Below, one piece after another: positions 5,927 through 61,712 of a DNA stretch of 64,000 nucleotides (position 1 is the stretch's first letter; every line of letters begins with the position of its first letter). The translations under genes were made by a program, and so were the position numbers. The notes below the pieces were generated by a model that worked only from the letters and a program-made list of their open reading frames with translations, was not told the DNA's origin and searched no databases. Origin of the DNA: Rugalucina vietnamica (lineage: Eukaryota > Mollusca > Bivalvia > Lucinida > Lucinidae); assembly GCA_964017185.1 (NCBI GenBank), contig OZ024873.1, positions 47,230,760-47,294,759 of the forward strand. Direction: 5' to 3'.

Positions 5927-7116
5927 TCTCCCCACTTCAGGGTCGGATGACATATTGTTTTTCCCCGTCTGTCCGTCCGTCTGTCCGTCACAAATCGTGT
6001 CCGCTCTATAATTTGAAAACCGTTAAAGATTTTTCAATGAAACTTGGTACACTTGTAAACCACGATGAGACGATGTGTCATGCACAAGAACCATAACTCT
6101 AGCTTGAGTATTTTTGGAGTTATTTTCCTTTGATTATTTTCGATACAATTTCGTGTCCGCTCCATAACTTGAAAACCGTTTAAGATTTTTCAATAAAACT
6201 TGGTACACTTATTAAGCATGATCAGACGATGTGTCATGCACAAGAACCATAATTCTGGCTTGAGTATTTTATGAGTTATTTCCCTTTGATTATTTTCCAT
6301 ACAATTTCGTGTCCGTTCTATAACTCGAAAACCGTAAGAGATATTTCAATGAAACTTGGTACACTTATAAAGCACGATGAGATAATGTGTCGTGTTAAAG
6401 AACCATAACTCTTTGCTTGCATATCTTTGGAGTAATTTCCCTTTAATTGTTTTCCATACAATTTCGTGTCCACTCTATAACATGAAAACCGTAAGAGAAA
6501 TTTCAGTGAAACTTGGTACATGTACACTTATAAAGCACGCATGCATAAGAATTATAACTCTTGCTTTCATATCTTTGGAGTTATTTCCCTTTGATTATTT
6601 TTTCCATACAATTTCATGTCCGCTCTATAACTTGAAAACCATAAGAAATATTTCAATGAAACTTGGTACACTTATAAAGCACGATGAGATGATGTGTCAT
6701 GCTAAGGAACCATAACTCTTGCTTGCATATCTTTGGAGTTATTTCCCTTTGCTTATTTTTCATACAATTTTGTGTCTGCTCTATAACTAAAAAACCATTA
6801 GAGATTTTTCAATGAAACATAGTACACTCATAAAGCATGATGAGACGATGTCTCATGCACAAGAATCGTTACTATTGCTATCATATCTTTGGAGTTATTT
6901 CCCTTTGATTATTTTCCATACAATTCCGTGCCCGCTCTATAACTTGAAAACCGTAAGAGATATTTCAATGAAACTTGGTACACTTATAAAACAGAATGAC
7001 AGGATATGTGATGCACAAGAACTATAATTATTGCTTGCATATTTTGGACATGCACGTAGAAAGGGGGGAGACATCAGTTTTCACATAGAAAACAAATTCT
7101 AGTTGTTATTCGGTTA
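5927..7116 (+). mobile_element. H element: Helitron-like element carrying a ~155-bp tandem array
   Basis: The left end reads TGTCTCCCCACTTCAGGGTC, followed by a GTCCGTCTGTCC pyrimidine run. Then come about seven tandem units of ~155 bp, each with CGCTCTATAACTTGAAAACC, TTTCAATGAAACTTGGTACA and GGAGTTATTTCCCTTTGATT. The right end has a hairpin GTTTTC-ACATA-GAAAAC, a short spacer and CTAG before a T. A 3' hairpin near CTRR is the Helitron hallmark, but the 5' TC end is not clean here. A second copy lies at 60302-61856. Several open frames in the array are artefacts. Confidence 0.65.
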
Positions 7117-41133: not shown

Positions 41134-41230
41134 ATGAATGGAACTCGATCACGACAGTCAGGAACAGACAAAGACTCCACCAACTCGTGTAAAATTGTGC
41201 TTTTAGGATGTCCAGGAGTTGGGAAAACTG
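41134..41230 (+). CDS. GTPase exon 1
   Basis: N-terminal extension plus the P-loop through Lys31-Thr32, then donor ACTG|GTAAGC (phase 1). Confidence 0.85.
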
Positions 41231-44200
41231 GTAAGCAGTCAGGAAAACATGTCAATGTAATCATTATGAAAACTTGCCCATGCAATATACAGAGATTTTT
41301 TCAGCTGTAAAAATTGAAAATGTCACCAGAAAATTTTTAATATTTTTGCTCAAAATATACATTGTGGGTACCCAAAGTGGATCAGAAATAAAAAAAAATT
41401 TTTTTTTGAAAAATCTGATGAAAATTTTCAATTAATTATTTTTACAACCGAAGCAAAATCTCTATATTACATGGACATGTTTTCGTAATGAAAATCACTG
41501 CTGAGCCGAAGGCTCATCAGGTGAGCTTAGGTAAAGCAAAGCTCCGTCGTCGTCCGCCGTCCACAATTTCATAGATCATTTCTAAAGCTAGTGGGCCAAT
41601 CTTGGTCAGATATAATGTTCCCGAACCATCATTGGCTTTAGGTATTGACTGCATTATCTTTGAAACAGATTGTTTCAAAATTTTGGCTTCCACCGCAACA
41701 AATAGCTGCCATAAGTCCTGCCAACCATGTCCATGGGGTCCATACATGCCACGCTGTACAAGGGGCCTCTATCAGCCATAGGTTTGTTGTAGGAAACATA
41801 TGAAAAAATCTCTGAAACCACAAGACCTTAAGCTTGTGTATTTAGTGTGTAGCAATTTTATATGGTGCTTTACATGGATTCTGCCAATGATGCCCCTTGG
41901 ATTCACTGGGAACATTTAGTAGCTTCCATTTACTTACAATAGGGAGACATACACAACTCTTTTGCTCTAACCATCTCTAAAAGCATGAGCGCTAGAACTT
42001 TTATATCATGTGTGAAGCAAAGTTAAGTGTGAAGCAAAGTTAAGTAATCTTCAAGGGTGGTCGGGTGGGAATATGTGCCCCTGCTCATTTGGGCTAAAAG
42101 AAATAGATATGCTGCTTGTGCTTATACACTACTGACTCTTAGTCTGACTGACCATCTGATTACTGGTTAACCGCTCTGGACTTAGCCTACCCAGAAAGTG
42201 GTTTCAAGTCAAACCATCCATACGTATATTGTGTCTTAGTTTGGTGGTTAAATTTGAAGCACTTGTTGGATGTCATGACATCCTTATTTTGGGTAAAAGT
42301 CCCATAAAATGAAAGCCTCATCCCGACATGACCAAAGCTGTTGACTGGGGCATTTAGCATCAATTTTCCTGCCCCGGGGGTACATATAGGTCATGTCCAA
42401 GGACAGGGGACAGTGGATCCACTAATAGCAGAACTTCCAAGATCAGGTGAGCGGTTAAAGGACGATTGATCATCTTGTATTTTTTAAGGTGTTTCAGAAA
42501 AGGGTTATTTGAAAAGGGCTGTTTGTAAATGATAGTGTTCGGACCGTAGCTATAAATTCAAAGAAAACATGAATTCTGACACAGAAAGTAATAGTTAATT
42601 TTTCACTGTTTAGCACCTATGCCAGACACCTGCCTGCAGCTTCAACCTAATTTATCACACCTGTTTGAATTAATGGTCTACATCTGGAGCAGGAATTTGT
42701 CATGTTTCAAAACTTCAGATACTGAAACACTTTTATAGAAACATGTTATCATTTAAAATACATTATTTTTAATAAAGTAAGAACCATTTTGATTTAGACG
42801 ATTTCTTATTTTTAATATGCTATATATATATTGTCAATGGAAAAAAATGTTTAACATGAACGGCATTGAATCCACTTCTTCTACTTCTCATGTAGATTAG
42901 CGTCTTCGTTTTCTTTACTCAAATATTATTATTCCTTCAACCCTCTTGACCGGATGTTGAGAGCAATTGTCTGTGGATAATGTGAAGTAATGATTATATC
43001 GTCATTTCTTTTTCAGCGCTTACGGTACGGTTTATGACGAGGAGGTTCATAGGAGAATATTGCCCTACCCTGGGTATGTTTACAGAATGATATTACCCAA
43101 CCCTACTGTCTGTCCACCATCTTAGACACCTTAAATTGAAAATCAAGCAAATCTATGGATAACTTTTAAAATTTGGCCCTCAGCTATGCATACAATACAA
43201 TTTTGTTTTGGTTTGGTGCATTTTAAATTAAAAATAATCAATTTAGATTTTCTGCGGGAAAATAGTTACTTCCCTTGCCTTTTAAAATGGAAAAAGTCAT
43301 ATTCAAAATTATTTTCTGGCATAAAATTTGTATTTGTTAACCGATTTTCAAAATTTTGTGGCACTTTTTAAGACTTTTGGAATGCAAAATGGTGACTTGG
43401 TAATAATTTTCTTGAGGTCTGGTCTTTCAGAAAAGTGAGATTTTGAAAAATGCAGTTTCTGGAAGATGGTGAATAGACAGTAGATATTTTAATAGAATAA
43501 TATTGCGCTGCCCTGGGTATGTATACTGAATACTATTGTCCTACCATAGGTATGTATACAGAAAATATTGCCTAATCCTGGTTATGTATACAGAAACATG
43601 GTATGTATACAGACACTATTGGCATAACCTTGGTATGTATAGTTTTTTTTATATACACAAACCATTGCCTTACCCTGGGTATGAATACAGAAACTATTGC
43701 CCTAATCATGGTATGTATACAGAAATTATTGCTCTAACTTTAGTATGTATAAAAATCTATTGCCCTAACCTTGGTATGTATAAAAAAGTATTGCCCTACC
43801 CAGGATATGTATACATAAATTGTTGCCCCTATCGTTGGTATGTATTCAGAAACGAGTGCATTAACCTTGGTATGTATACAGAAACTATTGCCCTACCCTG
43901 GGTATGTACACTGTGTGGCACTTCTAACACAACCCTTACATTTTCCTCCACTTCTAAAAAAGTATATAAGATTTTTAAACAAAATTTTAATCAAAGTTAA
44001 CTGCAGTTACCAACTTTGCTCTCTATAAATTTCAAAGAAAGGTATCAAAATTGCGACACAAAACAAAAAGTTACAAAACAGCCACACGAGTCGATAATGT
44101 CGTTATTGGTAACATGGCAACATAGCAGTTGTCTTGGCCCTTTGAAGGGTATTCCAGGCTTCATCTAGTATCCTTTTCGACCGCCTGGGTATGTTTACAG

Positions 44201-44307
44201 ACACATAGCCCTACTCATGGTATGTATACTGAAGCTATTGCCCTATTGATTTCCGAATAGTAGTAAGCGGGTGGAATATGAATGTTTTCTGGCATGCACT
44301 ACATTCT

Positions 44308-44356
<49 letters not shown>

Positions 44357-47300
44357 CTAGAAGTATTTACCATCCACAAATTATTTCACATTATTAGTTT
44401 TTTATCGATATCAAGCTGGACTCCTCTTATGTTTGCCGTACACGAGTTTCTTATCATTTATGGTAATCGATTACGTGCTTGGTAATGAGCTTGTTAAGAT
44501 TTTCTCAACGATAATTTCGAAACGTTAAAGCTAATTTCGAAAAAAAGGTTTAAGAAACTGTCGAGTTAAATCTAGGCTGAATGGGGGGGGGGGGGGGGGG
44601 GGTTCGCCGACGATTTCTCGTATTTTTGCTGTTTCTGTTCGAATGATAAATATGGTCACGGATGATACAATGTTAACTTATTGTGACAATGTCCGTTTCT
44701 TCTTATGGCTAAGTAGAGTTTTTAGAAAGGGGCATTTACACACAAAAAATTACTGCCTTTCTATAGTCACTGTAGCAATTTCGACTCGAGAGTCTTTTAC
44801 CCGTGACTGTAAGTTATGTTTATACAAAGGAACGTTATACTGTAGGTTTCATCGATATTCTTTCGATAATAATTCTGGAAACTTCGAGGTTGAAGTTAAG
44901 CTTATCTACTAAATTAGTTTCTAATCATTAAAGTTTACCCTCTTATCGGTTAAGTAATGAGATAGTAAACACTGCAAACATCTGTTTTATGTACCATCAG
45001 TTTTATTGACAGACCAATACATTTGATGTAGCGATATTTCGGGATACTTTTCAGAAACACACAAAATTACAAATAGGCACTGATACAAATTAATATACAA
45101 ATAAGCAGAGGGAGCAGCTATTTCCCCAAGATGGCTTCTGAGTTACCTGAATGTAACTTAATATTAAATACGTACATGTACATAAAAAGCGCAAGCAAAA
45201 CAAAAATTGACACCACACTTCCTGAAATGAATATTAAAATATAATTTGTATATTTTTACCACGCTCCCCGAAATGATGTTCAACTAATTAAATCGTATAC
45301 TGAACCAAGATCGGATTTGAATTTTAAGAGAGAAAAAAATAAAGCATGCATTCGTATCGTTGATCAGTATTTTGACTCACATTTTGCACCTTCAATTGTA
45401 AGCGCTTTTGTATTTCAGTGTATTGGATTTTCATTGTCTGTCCGAGCTTTTTCCTTTGACTCAAGCATGTATACACTTATGTTTTGACTGCGAGTTTATG
45501 CAACTTTTCTCCCGAAGTGAAGTTGGGGAACAGAGGCTAGCAAATCCAATTAGAATCCTACGTACTGTTATTTAACATAAAATGTGCCTCAGTGTTGTCT
45601 ACGCAAAAATAGAGATAAGGAGGGCTCCCAGGATTAAAATATGTATCAAAACGTCGAAATTGTTCCTAAAACTGGGGGTTAAAAAAAAAAAAAAAAAAAA
45701 AAATACCGAATAAGTAAGGTATAACAAACTTCATTTGAAATTTTTTTTTTTTTTCTTTTTTCACGGGTGACGAAGGGTGGGGATCGGCTTGGCGTCAAAC
45801 AAAGTATTCTTAGCATACAGATACATGTAACATGTTACAGCGACTTGTGTTTCGACAAAAATTCAGAGTACCTCCAAGGAACACTAGTTCATATAAATAT
45901 GTTATAACGAGAACTGACCAGTACCAGCATATTGGATGTCTCACATGTTGTGTGTTAGATATGTATATATAAAAAGTCAAGGTATGCACTGAGTAAAATT
46001 CCAGGTATTGCATTCAGAGAAAGAAATATTTACTGCCAGTAAAACGTGTCGATGGAAATATATGTAAACTTCCTCGTCCTATTTATTTTCGCTTCCAATA
46101 TACTCAGCAAAATAAAATAATGATAATACTAAAACCATGAACTGAGCGTGGGCTCAGTCGGTGAGATGAGTCAATGAGCTGAGTGAATAAGGTAAGTCTG
46201 TGACATGTAGCATGACCTCAGGGTTAGTGACACGAGTTGGGACTCAGACCACGCGCCGTTTAGCAGCCACAACGATTCGGAATCATGCAAATTTTGTTTC
46301 ATCTACAAGTTTTGATCAGCGCGATGACTTTAATCTTGATATAGATGTTTGTTTCTGTTTTCGGATGGTAAACTTGTTCACGCTCACAAAAATCTCTTTT
46401 ATTGGTCTGAAAGCGGTCCGTGAAACAAACTTTTGCTACCATTTATGAAAATTGGTCTAGCTGTTTTGTAAATATATAGTTCATTTTACACTACTTTTTA
46501 CAACGAATGTCTGTGGTCGAAAACTTAACAATGGAGATAGCTGACATTTATCATTTTATGATTGTAAGGTTATGAGATTAGGTACCTGCAAAATCGGTTT
46601 AAGCCCCCAGTAATCCTATATTACTGATCGTTCCAAGGCGAAACTTCTGTTGTGGTTTTAATTGCCTTATGTTTTGGTGTTGAATTTTTGTGCTGTTTGC
46701 ACCTTATGTACGTTTTTTTTTTTATATTTTTGTTAAGTTCAGGTTACTGAGTGCAGACTATTGGGAAATAGTTGCTCACTCGGCTTACGATATGTTTTCT
46801 TAATGTCAATTTAGTTTTCCCGTCTCGATTTTTGGAGTGGAATTTCTTTCCGATTGGGCCGTTTCCTGATCGTTGCCTATTGTTACCTTTTTATGACATC
46901 ATAGCCTCCCAGTCTCGTTCTGGATTCAAGCCAGGCACATCTTCAAGCCTGTCTAAAGCCCCTATCTCACTGGAATGCGACAACTGGAGACTAGTTCGCG
47001 AATAGTTCGCGACTATTTCGCGACAAAGATTGACGATATAAACACAACTTTCACGTTGCAGTCTCATTGAATAGACATTTATGCGACAAATTCGCTATTT
47101 TCGGTCTAATTTTGAAAATATATCTCACGACTTTCCCGCGAATGTACCTTATTTTCATTTTAATTCGTACGACAGTCGCGCGACATTCGTGGGAGTGTCG
47201 CACGACAGTCGTACCAATGTCGCTTAGTTTTATTTTCTCGCCAGATAGTCGCGAGGTTTTCGCATGTTTACTCAAGACTGTCGCGCGACCGTCGTGCGAC

Positions 47301-49271
47301 ACTCGCACGAGTGTCGCGAAAATTTTGCATTGTAAATTCGCCAAAATTTTGCGGCGACAGGTTCGCGACACTCGCACGAATGTCGGGCGACCGTCGCATG
47401 ACAATCGCGCGACAGTCTTGCGAAATATTTTGGCGAAAAAAAAAAATCGCATAAAATTTTTAAACATGTTTAAAACCATCGCGACCAGTTCGCGACGAGT
47501 TCGCGACACATGAAAATTCTCACGACACTCGTGCGACACTCGCACGAATGTCGTGTGAAAGTCCGCGACAAAATTCGCAAAACAGTCGCGAGAAATTCGC
47601 ATGCCAGTGAGATACTAGCTTACTCTTTGTTAGAGTATTTTGATTTTAAATTTGTTGCTAACTGTTCAGCAACATTTGCTTCTTATTCAAAGAATATGTA
47701 GGAGTGCGGCCCTGTTCTGATTTTTTTTTTGGGTATCTGTGGAGACGGGCTACATGTATTTATTTTTAGGGAACTGGATAGCTTTAATGGTTATTTTAGG
47801 TAAGCTTCGAAGTAGGCAAATATTTATTTTGGGAAGGTACATGTATAGGGAAGTATGGGCAAAAACACTTAAAGAGATGTAAAGAAAAAAGAAGAAGACA
47901 ATTCAGGGATTTGGTGAGATCATGGCCTTTCTTTAAGAAAGCATGGGGTAGAGACCTCTCCCATCTCCTGAAGATGCCTTAGACGTTTATTAGCCTATTG
48001 CTTTAATTAATTTTCATTAAACTTAAAGATTGATTCCGAGAAAGCCATACCAGTATTAAATTATTTTAAATTACTGATTTGTTTCAGAGAGTATTCATAA
48101 ATTCCACTCTACCATTGATTCTGAGGAAGTCATGCTAGAAATTCTGGACACAGCTGGATTGGTAATACTTTAATGTACCGTTTATAAGTCTTTCATTTTC
48201 ACATTTTCATCAGCAATAAAGGCATGAGGTTTAAACTATGAAACTTTCCGTTTGGAGTGTCGATGTTTGTATACCTACACATCTCTGATTACTAGTAGTC
48301 TCTGTTTACATGCTTGTATCCCAAATTTATGTAGAAAAACTGTGGTATGCAGCGGTATACCTACTTTTTGTATTTTTGCTCCAAAACATAGACTGTGGGT
48401 ACTCATTAGAACCGCCTCAGCGAGGCGGTTCTAACGTGTGCCCACAATCGATATTTTGAACAAAAATAAGAAAAATATCAAAACTTTTCACCTGAAAATT
48501 TTCTATTTTTTAAGCTCTAACGTAATGACATGCCTTTAGTGACTTTGCACTCACAATTTAAGTAACTTGTTCGCTGTACTTTCTGTTTTTTAAGAATTTC
48601 ATGCTCAGAATATTTATTTTCACGGCCTTAAACTGAAGATAGGCTGTCGCTTAAGACGTTGTATTATCAAGTATAGGTCTAATGATAATTATTGTACCTT
48701 AATGTTTTTCAACGGATTTTATTATGAACTTCTCGCCATAATGTTTACAATATATATATATATATATAAAAGAAAGAAAGAAACATCAGTTTTTACAGTT
48801 GCGCGTGTTTTCAAAATGATTTGTTTTCTCTTTCAGGTGGCAGACACGTGGAAGGATTATTACGCATTTTGGGGTGACTGCTACATTTTTGTTTATTCTA
48901 TAACAGACCGTCGAGGGTTCGAGGAGATTATAAACCTGAAGCGTCAGGTAGAAAATCTCAAGCACAGTCCTGTATACGGACTTCTAGTGGGCAACAAAAG
49001 TGATCTCCTACATGACAGAAAAGTGCCAGAATCTGAAGCTATTGAGCTAGCGGACGAAATAGGTTGTAAATATTACGAACTTTCTGCCGCTGATTGGACA
49101 CAGGTCACCGTCATCAGAGACTTGTTTTATGACGCTGTTAGACTGCACCGGAAGTCTCAAGTGCCACGTGATATACGAGTGCGAAGGACAAGTTCGTCAA
49201 TGAGGTTTAGACAGGCTATTCAAAAAGTGATCACAGGGAAGCCGTCACCTAAACGTCTGTCGACGTCATGA
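41134..49271 (+). CDS. RERG/RASL-like Ras-family small GTPase (4 exons, 220 aa)
   Basis: Exons 41134-41230, 43017-43073, 48088-48161 and 48837-49271 join in phase (1, 1, 0) with GT-AG introns. The 220-aa product has P-loop GCPGVGKT (25-32), switch I Thr in EYCPTLES (T50), DTAGL (72-76), GNKSD (128-132) and ELSAA (157-161). The order ALTVRFMTRRFIGEYCPTLE is typical of the RERG/RASL12 branch. The C-terminus is basic with no CAAX box, as in RERG, so no prenylation is expected. Ras position 12 is Pro and position 61 is Leu. The likely role is a GTP-binding regulator; target unknown. The start was chosen at the first ATG in frame; the frame is closed upstream by a stop at 41074. Confidence 0.88.
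41240..41480. repeat. F foldback family copy in intron 1
   Basis: Inverted arms: AATATACAGAGATTTTTTCA on the left and its inverse AAAATCTCTATATTACATGG on the right, with ATACATTGTGGGTACCC near the middle. It begins about ten bases after the splice donor. Confidence 0.6.
41497..42480 (+). mobile_element. P element in intron 1, truncated at left and carrying a SINE
   Basis: Left GAGCCGAAGGCTCATCAGGT, right ATCAGGTGAGCGGTTAAAGG and GATTGATCATCTTGTA. Interrupted by the SINE at 42052-42375. Confidence 0.65.
42052..42375 (+). mobile_element. tRNA-derived SINE nested in the P element
   Basis: Head AAAAGAAATAGATATGC, ACTGGTTAACCGCTCTGG, GGTTTCAAGTC; body GTCCCATAAAATGAAAGCCT; tail TTGACTGGGGCATTTAGCAT. 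Confidence 0.8.
43017..43073 (+). CDS. GTPase exon 2
   Basis: Acceptor TTTTTCAG|CG and donor CCCTGG|GTATGT. Encodes ALTVRFMTRRFIGEYCPTL, with the switch I Thr. Its last 20 bases and the donor are the template of the intron 2 minisatellite. Confidence 0.85.
43492..43916 (+). repeat. 34-bp minisatellite copied from the exon 2/intron 2 junction
   Basis: About 13 imperfect units whose consensus contains ATTGCCCTACCCTGG joined to GTATGTATACAGAAACT, matching the exon 2 end ATTGCCCTACCCTGG|GTATGTTTACAG. Nearly every unit keeps a GGTATGT donor-like core. Two more units lie at 44185-44250, and a degraded one follows the true junction at 43085-43110. Confidence 0.85.
44313..44354. repeat. poly(T) run
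   Basis: A T tract of about 42 bases in intron 2; a G run of about 19 bases follows at 44583-44601. Confidence 0.8.
45095..45215 (-). mobile_element. R element fragment in intron 2
   Basis: GCAGAGGGAGCAGCTATTTC, GAGTTACCTGAATGTAACTT and CATAAAAAGCGCAAGCAAAA match the R family. Confidence 0.55.
46588..46892 (+). mobile_element. R element, 5'-truncated copy in intron 2
   Basis: Sense orientation: ATCGGTTTAAGCCCCCAGTA, TACTGATCGTTCCAAGGCGA, TGCTCACTCGGCTTACGATA, and the 3' end TTGCCTATTGTTACCTTTTT. Confidence 0.8.
46961..47612. mobile_element. W4: 650-bp TCGCGA/TCGCACGA word element with TIRs
   Basis: The ends TATCTCACTGGAATGCGA and TCGCATGCCAGTGAGATA are inverted repeats with one mismatch. 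The interior repeats TCGCGAC, GTCGCGCGAC, CACTCGCACGA and TCGTGCGACA dozens of times in both orientations. Both strands are open for 150-180 codons only because the words lack stops. It lies in intron 2 of the GTPase gene. Confidence 0.7.
48088..48161 (+). CDS. GTPase exon 3
   Basis: Acceptor TTTCAG|AG and donor GGATTG|GTAATA. Encodes SIHKFHSTIDSEEVMLEILD and TAGL, covering the interswitch and the G3 box. Confidence 0.85.
48335..48520. repeat. F foldback family copy in intron 3
   Basis: Central hairpin GTGGGTACTCATTAGAACCG / CGAGGCGGTTCTAACGTGTG flanked by ATTTTTGCTCC and AACAAAAATAAG arms. Confidence 0.65.
48837..49271 (+). CDS. GTPase exon 4
   Basis: Acceptor CTTTCAG|GTGG; 144 codons plus stop. 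Holds GNKSD (G4), ELSAA (G5), and the basic C-terminus VRRTSSSMRF ... PKRLSTS. Confidence 0.9.
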   Translation: MADTWKDYYAFWGDCYIFVYSITDRRGFEEIINLKRQVENLKHSPVYGLLVGNKSDLLHDRKVPESEAIELADEIGCKYYELSAADWTQVTVIRDLFYDAVRLHRKSQVPRDIRVRRTSSSMRFRQAIQKVITGKPSPKRLSTS

Positions 49272-60301: not shown

Positions 60302-61362
60302 GTCGCTCCCCCCTTCAGGGTCGGGAAACATATTGCTTTTCCCCGTGCGTCTGTCTGTCCGTCCGTCTGTCTGTCCGTCACAAATCGTGTCCGCTCTATA
60401 ACTTGAAAACCGTTAAAGATTTTTCAATGAAACTTAGAACACTTGTAAATCACGACAAGACGATGTGTCGTGCACAAGAACCATAACTCTAGCTTGAGTA
60501 TTTTTGGAGTTATTTCCCTTTGATTATTTTCGATACAATTTCGTGTCCGCTCTATAACTTGAAAACCATTTAAGATTTTTCAATAAAACTTGGAACACTT
60601 ATTAAGCATGATCAGACGATGTGTCATGCACAAGAACCATAACTCTGGCTTGAGTATTTTATGAGTTATTTTCCTTTGATTATTTTCCATACAATTTCGT
60701 GTCCGCTCTATAACTCGAAAACCGTCAGAGATATTTCAATGAAACTTGGTACACTTATAAAGCACGATGAGATAATGTGTCGTGCTAAAGAATCACAACT
60801 CTTGCTTGCATATTTTTGGAGTAATTTCCCTTTGATTATTTTCCATACAATTTCGTGTCCACTCTATAACTTGAAAACCGTAAGAGAATTTTCAGTGAAA
60901 CTTGGTACACTTATAAAGCACGATCAGACGATGTGTCTTGCACAAGAATTATAACTCTTGCTTTCATATCTTTGGAGTTATTTTCCTTTGATTATTTTTT
61001 CCATACAATTTCATGTCCGCTCTATAACTTGAAAACCATAAGAAATATTTCAATGAAACTTGGTACACTTATAAAGCACGATGAGATGATGTGTCATGCT
61101 AAAGAACCATAACTCTTGCTTGCATATCTTTGGAGTTATTTCCCTTTGATTATTTTTCATACAATTTTGTGTCTGCTGTATAACTCAAAAACCATTAGAG
61201 ATTTTTCAATGAAACATGGTACACTTATAGAGCATGATGAGACGATGTGTCATGCACAAGAATCATTACTCTTGATTTCATATCTTTGGAGTTATTTCCC
61301 TTTGATTATTTTCCATACAATTTTGTGCCCGCTCTATAACTTGAAAACCGTAAGAGATATTT
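60302..61362 (+). mobile_element. H element, second copy, left part with tandem array
   Basis: TGTCGCTCCCCCCTTCAGGG then GTCTGTCTGTCCGTC and about six ~155-bp units closely matching 5927-7116. Interrupted at 61362 by R copy B. Confidence 0.75.
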
Positions 61363-61712
61363 CACTGCAGAAGCTGAGGGTGAGGTTATGGCCATGTAAA
61401 ACCGGTTTAAGCCCGCCAGTAACTGTTTGTTACTGATCGTTCCAAGGCGATACTTCTGTGGTGGTTCTTTTTGTTTTATGTCTTGGTGTTAAAAATGTTT
61501 GTGCTGCTGGGGCCTTATGTATGTTTTCATATTTTTAGTTAAGTTTAGGTAACTGAGTGGCCACCTATTGGGAAAATAGCTGCTCATTCGGCTTACGATA
61601 TGTTTTCATTGTATGAGTACCTGATTGTTAGTTTGGTTTTTCCCACCTCGGTTTTTGGAGTGGGAATCTTTTTTCTGATTGCGCCTTTTCCTGATCTTTG
61701 CCTACTTGTACC
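61363..61712 (+). mobile_element. R copy B, inserted in the H array
   Basis: Starts CTGCAGAAGCTGAGGGTGAG and ends TTTGCCTACTTGTACC. The array resumes at TTCAATGAAACTTGGTAC. TTCA occurs on both sides, a possible 4-bp duplication. Its 5' limit matches that of copy A. Confidence 0.85.

Follow-up and report, generated by a model that had tools for sequence, protein, structure and literature searches.

Intron 2 of a predicted RERG-like GTPase gene in the lucinid bivalve Rugalucina vietnamica opens with a tandem array built from the gene's own junction between exon 2 and intron 2, each unit repeating the last bases of the exon together with the adjoining 5' splice site. The array belongs to the "mirage" minisatellites, a kind that is rare but already known, and stands out by its apparent old age and its good polarity. 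It is most likely a neutral product of slippage whose donors act as silent decoys, probably leaving normal splicing unchanged.

The host gene and the junction-derived array

The gene lies on the plus strand at 41134-49271 of the window, by which we mean the whole 64,000-nucleotide stretch of DNA that was analysed. The predicted model comprises four exons with GT-AG introns and an intact 220-codon frame. Exon 1 (41134-41230) encodes the P-loop GCPGVGKT, ends at a GTAAGC donor and is placed by the gene model, the Pfam Ras family (PF00071) and human RERG (2atv). Exon 2 (43017-43073) encodes switch I (...RFIGEYCPTL-E) and is placed by the gene model, by the profile described below and by four paralogous loci. 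Exon 3 (48088-48161) and exon 4 (48837-49271, with the stop codon at 49269-49271) come from the gene model. The encoded protein matches Pfam Ras with E 1.3e-33, and its top PDB match is 2atv (E 1.2e-38). The predicted exon 2 is 57 nt long with 43073 as its last base (...ATTGCCCTACCCTGG|GTATGT), and its end falls inside switch I, where EYCPTL-E aligns to EYDPTLE of human RERG with 6/7 residues alike. In the alignment with 2atv, the GTPase carries Cys at the switch I Asp and Leu in place of RERG's Gln after DTAG; judged from these two substitutions, its GTP hydrolysis may be altered. Elsewhere in the genome, two adjacent RERG-like copies (G000 C15:36154637-36155194 and 36160887-36161375; L004 and L005) each match in one stretch and span most of the domain (query 18-204 with one internal TAA, and 18-181 free of stops), as in intronless copies.

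Each repeat unit consists of about 16 nt from the end of exon 2 followed by the first 16 nt or so of intron 2. The units stand in tandem with a period of mostly 32 bp (range 31-33; Tandem Repeats Finder gives 33 and 32), slightly shorter than the 34 bp that an earlier note on this DNA had proposed. Exon bases upstream of 43058 bear no resemblance to the unit (shuffle p 0.53), so the unit is confined to about 16 exonic and 16 intronic bases; a bigger original duplication extending deeper into exon 2 was ruled out by the same comparison. The 21-nt junction motif occurs at 10 places in the window (at most 3 mismatches, the junction itself counted), all within 43059-43907, against an expectation of 0 in 100 shuffled sequences. 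When ten stretches of the array, but not the junction, are used to build a profile, the junction is still recovered as the ninth-ranked hit, with 26.2 bits (E=4.4e-7). Both results bear out the central claim of the earlier note, that the units copy the gene's own junction. Hits of the profile outside the array are weak (the best at 24249-24226 on the minus strand, E 0.018), and we took them as chance.

When the units are delimited by their donors, 15 copied donors can be counted: 13 consecutive ones at 43517-43902, plus one each at 44189 and 44220. The exact hexamer GTATGT is retained in 12 of these, and GT in 13. One more unit has been split by an inserted element and lacks its GT, its donor now reading ATATTT. 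The array runs on the plus strand, beginning with the authentic donor GTATGT and the first repeat unit up to a TA target site (43074-43105). The rest of the split unit and the exonic half of the following one lie at 43483-43516, the main array with its 13 consecutive donors occupies 43517-43911, and the final units lie at 44184-44250. Minus both inserts, it measures about 528 bp, or 16.5 units.

Two further readings of the array were set aside. A 154-aa open frame crosses it at 43536-44000 in a frame that differs from that of exon 2, and we did not take it as coding. The units also resemble microexons in having TATACAG before and, after some 20 nt, GTATGT; this reading is unlikely, the pyrimidine content being too low (fractions of 0.39-0.61 over the 18 nt before AG in seven units, versus 0.61-0.83 in three real acceptors). 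Unusual RNA folding was not found at the junction (z 0.21).

Several other features of the window were recorded. Just behind the array lie a run of 45 T (44310-44354) and one of about 20 G (at about 44583-44602), and farther along intron 2, at 46980-47600, CGCGAC/CGCACGA-like motifs are dense and long open frames occur on both strands. Two 156-bp repeat arrays with near-identical consensus stand about 53 kb apart (5995-7048 and 60385-61364). An uninterrupted frame of 637 codons at 57757-59670 matches the Pfam family of sodium:solute symporters (SSF, E 5.9e-36), and a fragment at 40-303 matches Pfam Transposase_1 (E 4.2e-7), which we take to be a mariner-type transposase.

Inserted elements and relative age

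Two dispersed elements interrupt the array. The first is a 375-bp element with terminal inverted repeats (TIR) at 43106-43480, followed by a duplicated TA at 43481-43482; no strand is assigned to it, and it is recognised by its inverted arms and its dispersed copies. The inverted repeats (43103-43123 and 43463-43483) are 90% complementary over 21 nt and give CTA...TAG flanks. The family has at least 46 matches in the genome, drawn from the best 40 of 2942 first-look candidates, and among the matches listed at least 39 others are near full-length, with 87-90% identity and mostly starting from query base 23. In 29 other copies that we examined, the right end is always recognisable and is followed by TA in 28; the left end is recognised in 27, every time preceded by TA, and not in the remaining 2, so that 27 of the 29 have TA on both sides. 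The intron 2 element is shorter than its relatives (375 bp versus 540-577 bp in 27 other copies) and diverges from the family column majority by 5.2%, against a mean of 4.1% for 28 other copies. Terminal inverted repeats, a TA target duplication and many dispersed copies together mark 43106-43480 as an element of the TIR/MITE type. A TA target duplication is a trait of the Tc1/mariner family, and this single feature suggests that a Tc1/mariner transposase may have mobilised the element. Some copies (G000 C14:51236301-51236871 and others) adjoin their own partial inverted copy as a palindromic pair.

Once the element and one TA are excised, CCCTA is followed directly by GATATTTT, and the restored sequence can be aligned as a junction unit, though a degenerate one. 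The interior piece scores 11.5, and the highest score among 31276 other positions of the window is 8.0. Among 2116 scores in a test of alternative excisions, the TSD-defined cut ties at the top with three others, two of which yield identical joined letters; the nulls of that test do not preserve the real flanks and are therefore generous, which leaves the interior piece as the stronger evidence. Since joining the flanks restores a unit, the array is contiguous with exon 2 and starts at the splice junction. The earlier note had placed its start about 400 bp into the intron; that distance reflects the 375-bp element and the 2-bp target duplication, which came later. The second interruption (43912-44183, ends approximate, no strand assigned) is related to a dispersed repeat, with 26 other matches in the genome to 43914-44183.

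Twelve units of the main array, compared over 30 nt around the donor, have a mean identity of 0.75 to one another and of about 0.81 to the junction, the latter averaged by hand and the unit at 43601 being omitted from the identity matrix. Identity between units does not decay with distance (Spearman 0.05, permutation p 0.61). The clearest star pattern is seen in the exonic halves of ten units, which are 0.80 identical to the exon versus 0.70 among themselves; the intronic halves lack such a pattern (0.86 to the junction, 0.87 mutually). An A occupies position +7 in 14 of the 15 copied positions, where the junction has T. The star pattern suggests a single expansion that would have been followed by independent decay of the units. 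The 5.2% divergence of the inserted element is lower than that between units and fits a later insertion, with the caveat that minisatellite units may change at a different rate from the element. With its diverged units and two inserted dispersed elements, the array looks old and decaying.

Uniqueness and direction of copying

The exact junction 21-mer occurs at 2 places in the 1.09-Gb assembly, both at the array locus; allowing up to 2 mismatches gives 12 places, 9 at the array locus and 3 single ones elsewhere. A search of the assembly with the array DNA matched its own locus only, by a method that skips very common words, scores the best candidates only and does not by itself prove absence elsewhere. 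An unlinked array elsewhere in the genome, which the earlier note had named as the observation that would speak against its reading, was thus sought and not found, and the repeats come from the host gene's own boundary and not from a dispersed repeat, as mirages do. That the exon match arose by chance, or by secondary insertion of a dispersed minisatellite, is extremely improbable: the array was not found elsewhere in the assembly searched, shuffling yielded no occurrence of the motif, and the match starts in the exon and continues through the junction into the array.

To polarise the copying, we used the gene's paralogues. Exon 2 was sought in seven stretches beside paralogous matches and at seven further loci, and four paralogous exons were judged clear. 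All four share the intron position and phase at the exon 2 end, and none has a junction copy behind it (0 placements of at least 21/30 in the following 1.6-2.5 kb). By the same threshold, introns 1 and 3 of the GTPase gene contain 0 placements and intron 2 contains 13. Because the paralogues share the junction without the array, the junction is, on this comparison of sequences, older than the array. The opposite order is highly improbable; in it, the end of the exon or its donor would derive from a pre-existing array, by the gain of an intron or by gene conversion into exon 2. It could draw on the proposal (PMC3087553) that mirage repeats are a source of new introns, and on the residue at which exon 2 has Cys, since 3/4 paralogous exons have Asp there and the Cys codon is present in the array units. 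Against it stand the four paralogous exons, which lack the array but agree in intron position and phase, and EYCPTLE, which shares six of its seven residues with human RERG.

Copied donors and known precedents

The calculated pairing of the authentic donor with the 5' end of U1 amounts to -6.5 kcal/mol, and 11 of the 15 copied donors are at least as strong. Of 300 GT sites in the whole of intron 2, 22 reach this level: the authentic donor, those 11 copies and 10 sites outside the array, among them the strongest of all (46192). As so many sites pair with U1 as well as the authentic donor does, position must outweigh strength if that donor is the one used. Splicing at any of the 15 copied donors is predicted to run into a stop at codon 57 (of 220 codons), which lies ahead of the first inserted element, and to make exon 2 longer by 443-1146 nt, distances that are due to the inserted elements.

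We consider it quite probable, taking the explanation as a whole, that the array is an old neutral duplication with passive decoys and a retained authentic donor. Slippage or unequal exchange would have multiplied a segment of about 32 bp across the exon 2/intron 2 junction into a tandem row of about 16 additional copies within the intron, straight behind the real 5' splice site; after this old expansion, the units would have diverged and two dispersed elements would have entered the row. Splicing most likely still relies on the authentic donor, since it precedes all the copies and closes an exon of 57 nt, whereas the later donors define a far longer exon with a stop. The copies would then be passive decoys that cause, at most, slight unproductive splicing.

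Conservation of the donors bears on whether they do more than this. In a ten-row alignment counted by hand, from which the units at 43582 (truncated) and 43633 (T insertion) were left out, the donor hexamer has changed in 2/60 cells versus 40/260 in the other columns (Fisher p 0.006), and among 32 nine-column blocks the two at the donor show the least change. However, in a circular-shift control 5 of 32 six-column blocks, counting that of the donor, are preserved to the same or a higher degree, which makes the signal of donor constraint weak and leaves selection unproven. It is very doubtful that selection holds the donor core and that the copies, as unused 5' splice sites, serve U1-binding or unproductive-splicing control of the GTPase gene. 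Unlikely, too, is a role in which use of downstream donors yields stop-containing transcripts, which would undergo nonsense-mediated decay and so tune the protein level. The U1 pairing of the copied donors, the stop that each would give, the preservation of the donor columns and the reported use of two downstream repeat units as donors in human IFI6 (PMC4526556) would all suit such a role; the lengthening of exon 2 by the inserted elements argues against it, the divergence of the units and their invasion by elements resemble decay, and normal splicing is reportedly retained in mirages (PMC3087553) and in human F7 (PMC6627357). The window has 18 plus-strand occurrences of GGTATGT, 11 of them within 43074-44250, and 2 on its minus strand. 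U1 suppresses premature polyadenylation, and this density, together with the preserved donor core, could be read as a set of unspliced U1 landing sites that shield the long intron 2; given the weak outcome of the circular-shift control, we regard that role as very unlikely.

The earlier note had called a minisatellite that multiplies a splice junction unusual; it is indeed rare, yet of a known kind, the mirages described in PMC3087553. These repeats span the exon-intron boundary of their own gene in amphioxus Adh3 and in the globin genes BflGb6 and BflGb9, and are said there not to disturb regular splicing. Like them, the RERG-like array is tandem across its own gene's boundary and has many units with splice signals, and its unit length falls within the 10-72 bp reported for the Adh3 mirage (PMC3087553). 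The units of the RERG-like array are about 75% alike and give no sign of local homogenisation, in contrast to BflGb6, where units are reported to be 81-100% alike with concerted evolution and to differ in number between two haplotypes (PMC3087553). The RERG-like array further differs from the amphioxus mirages in copying a 5' splice junction some 16 times, in being interrupted by two dispersed elements and in its host, another animal.

In intron 7 of human F7, likewise, homologous repeats occur in variable number and the authentic 5' splice site lies in the first of them; the most upstream donor is reportedly the sole one used (PMC6627357). The F7 case differs in its gene, that of coagulation factor VII, and in its 37-bp units. 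Human IFI6 (6-16) is similar in that minisatellite units supply splice donors, as the title of a 1995 report by Turri is said to state. The precedents thus appear to disagree, mirages and F7 keeping normal splicing and IFI6 using downstream units. No junction-spanning minisatellite was found for molluscs in the literature searched, and cases may exist in print; a 27-bp minisatellite in intron 3 of an abalone TSSK1-like gene is described with no link to a splice junction, as far as the source goes (PMC6905558).

In this degenerate case of a splice-junction minisatellite, paralogues serve as an outgroup to establish which way the copying went, and the inserted elements date the array in relative terms. 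Since many donors of equal strength follow one exon, it forms a natural test, outside mammals, of whether position or strength governs the choice of donor. It also bears on the idea that repeats of this sort give rise to new introns; according to PMC2812944, introns may form from variable repeats at exon-intron boundaries.
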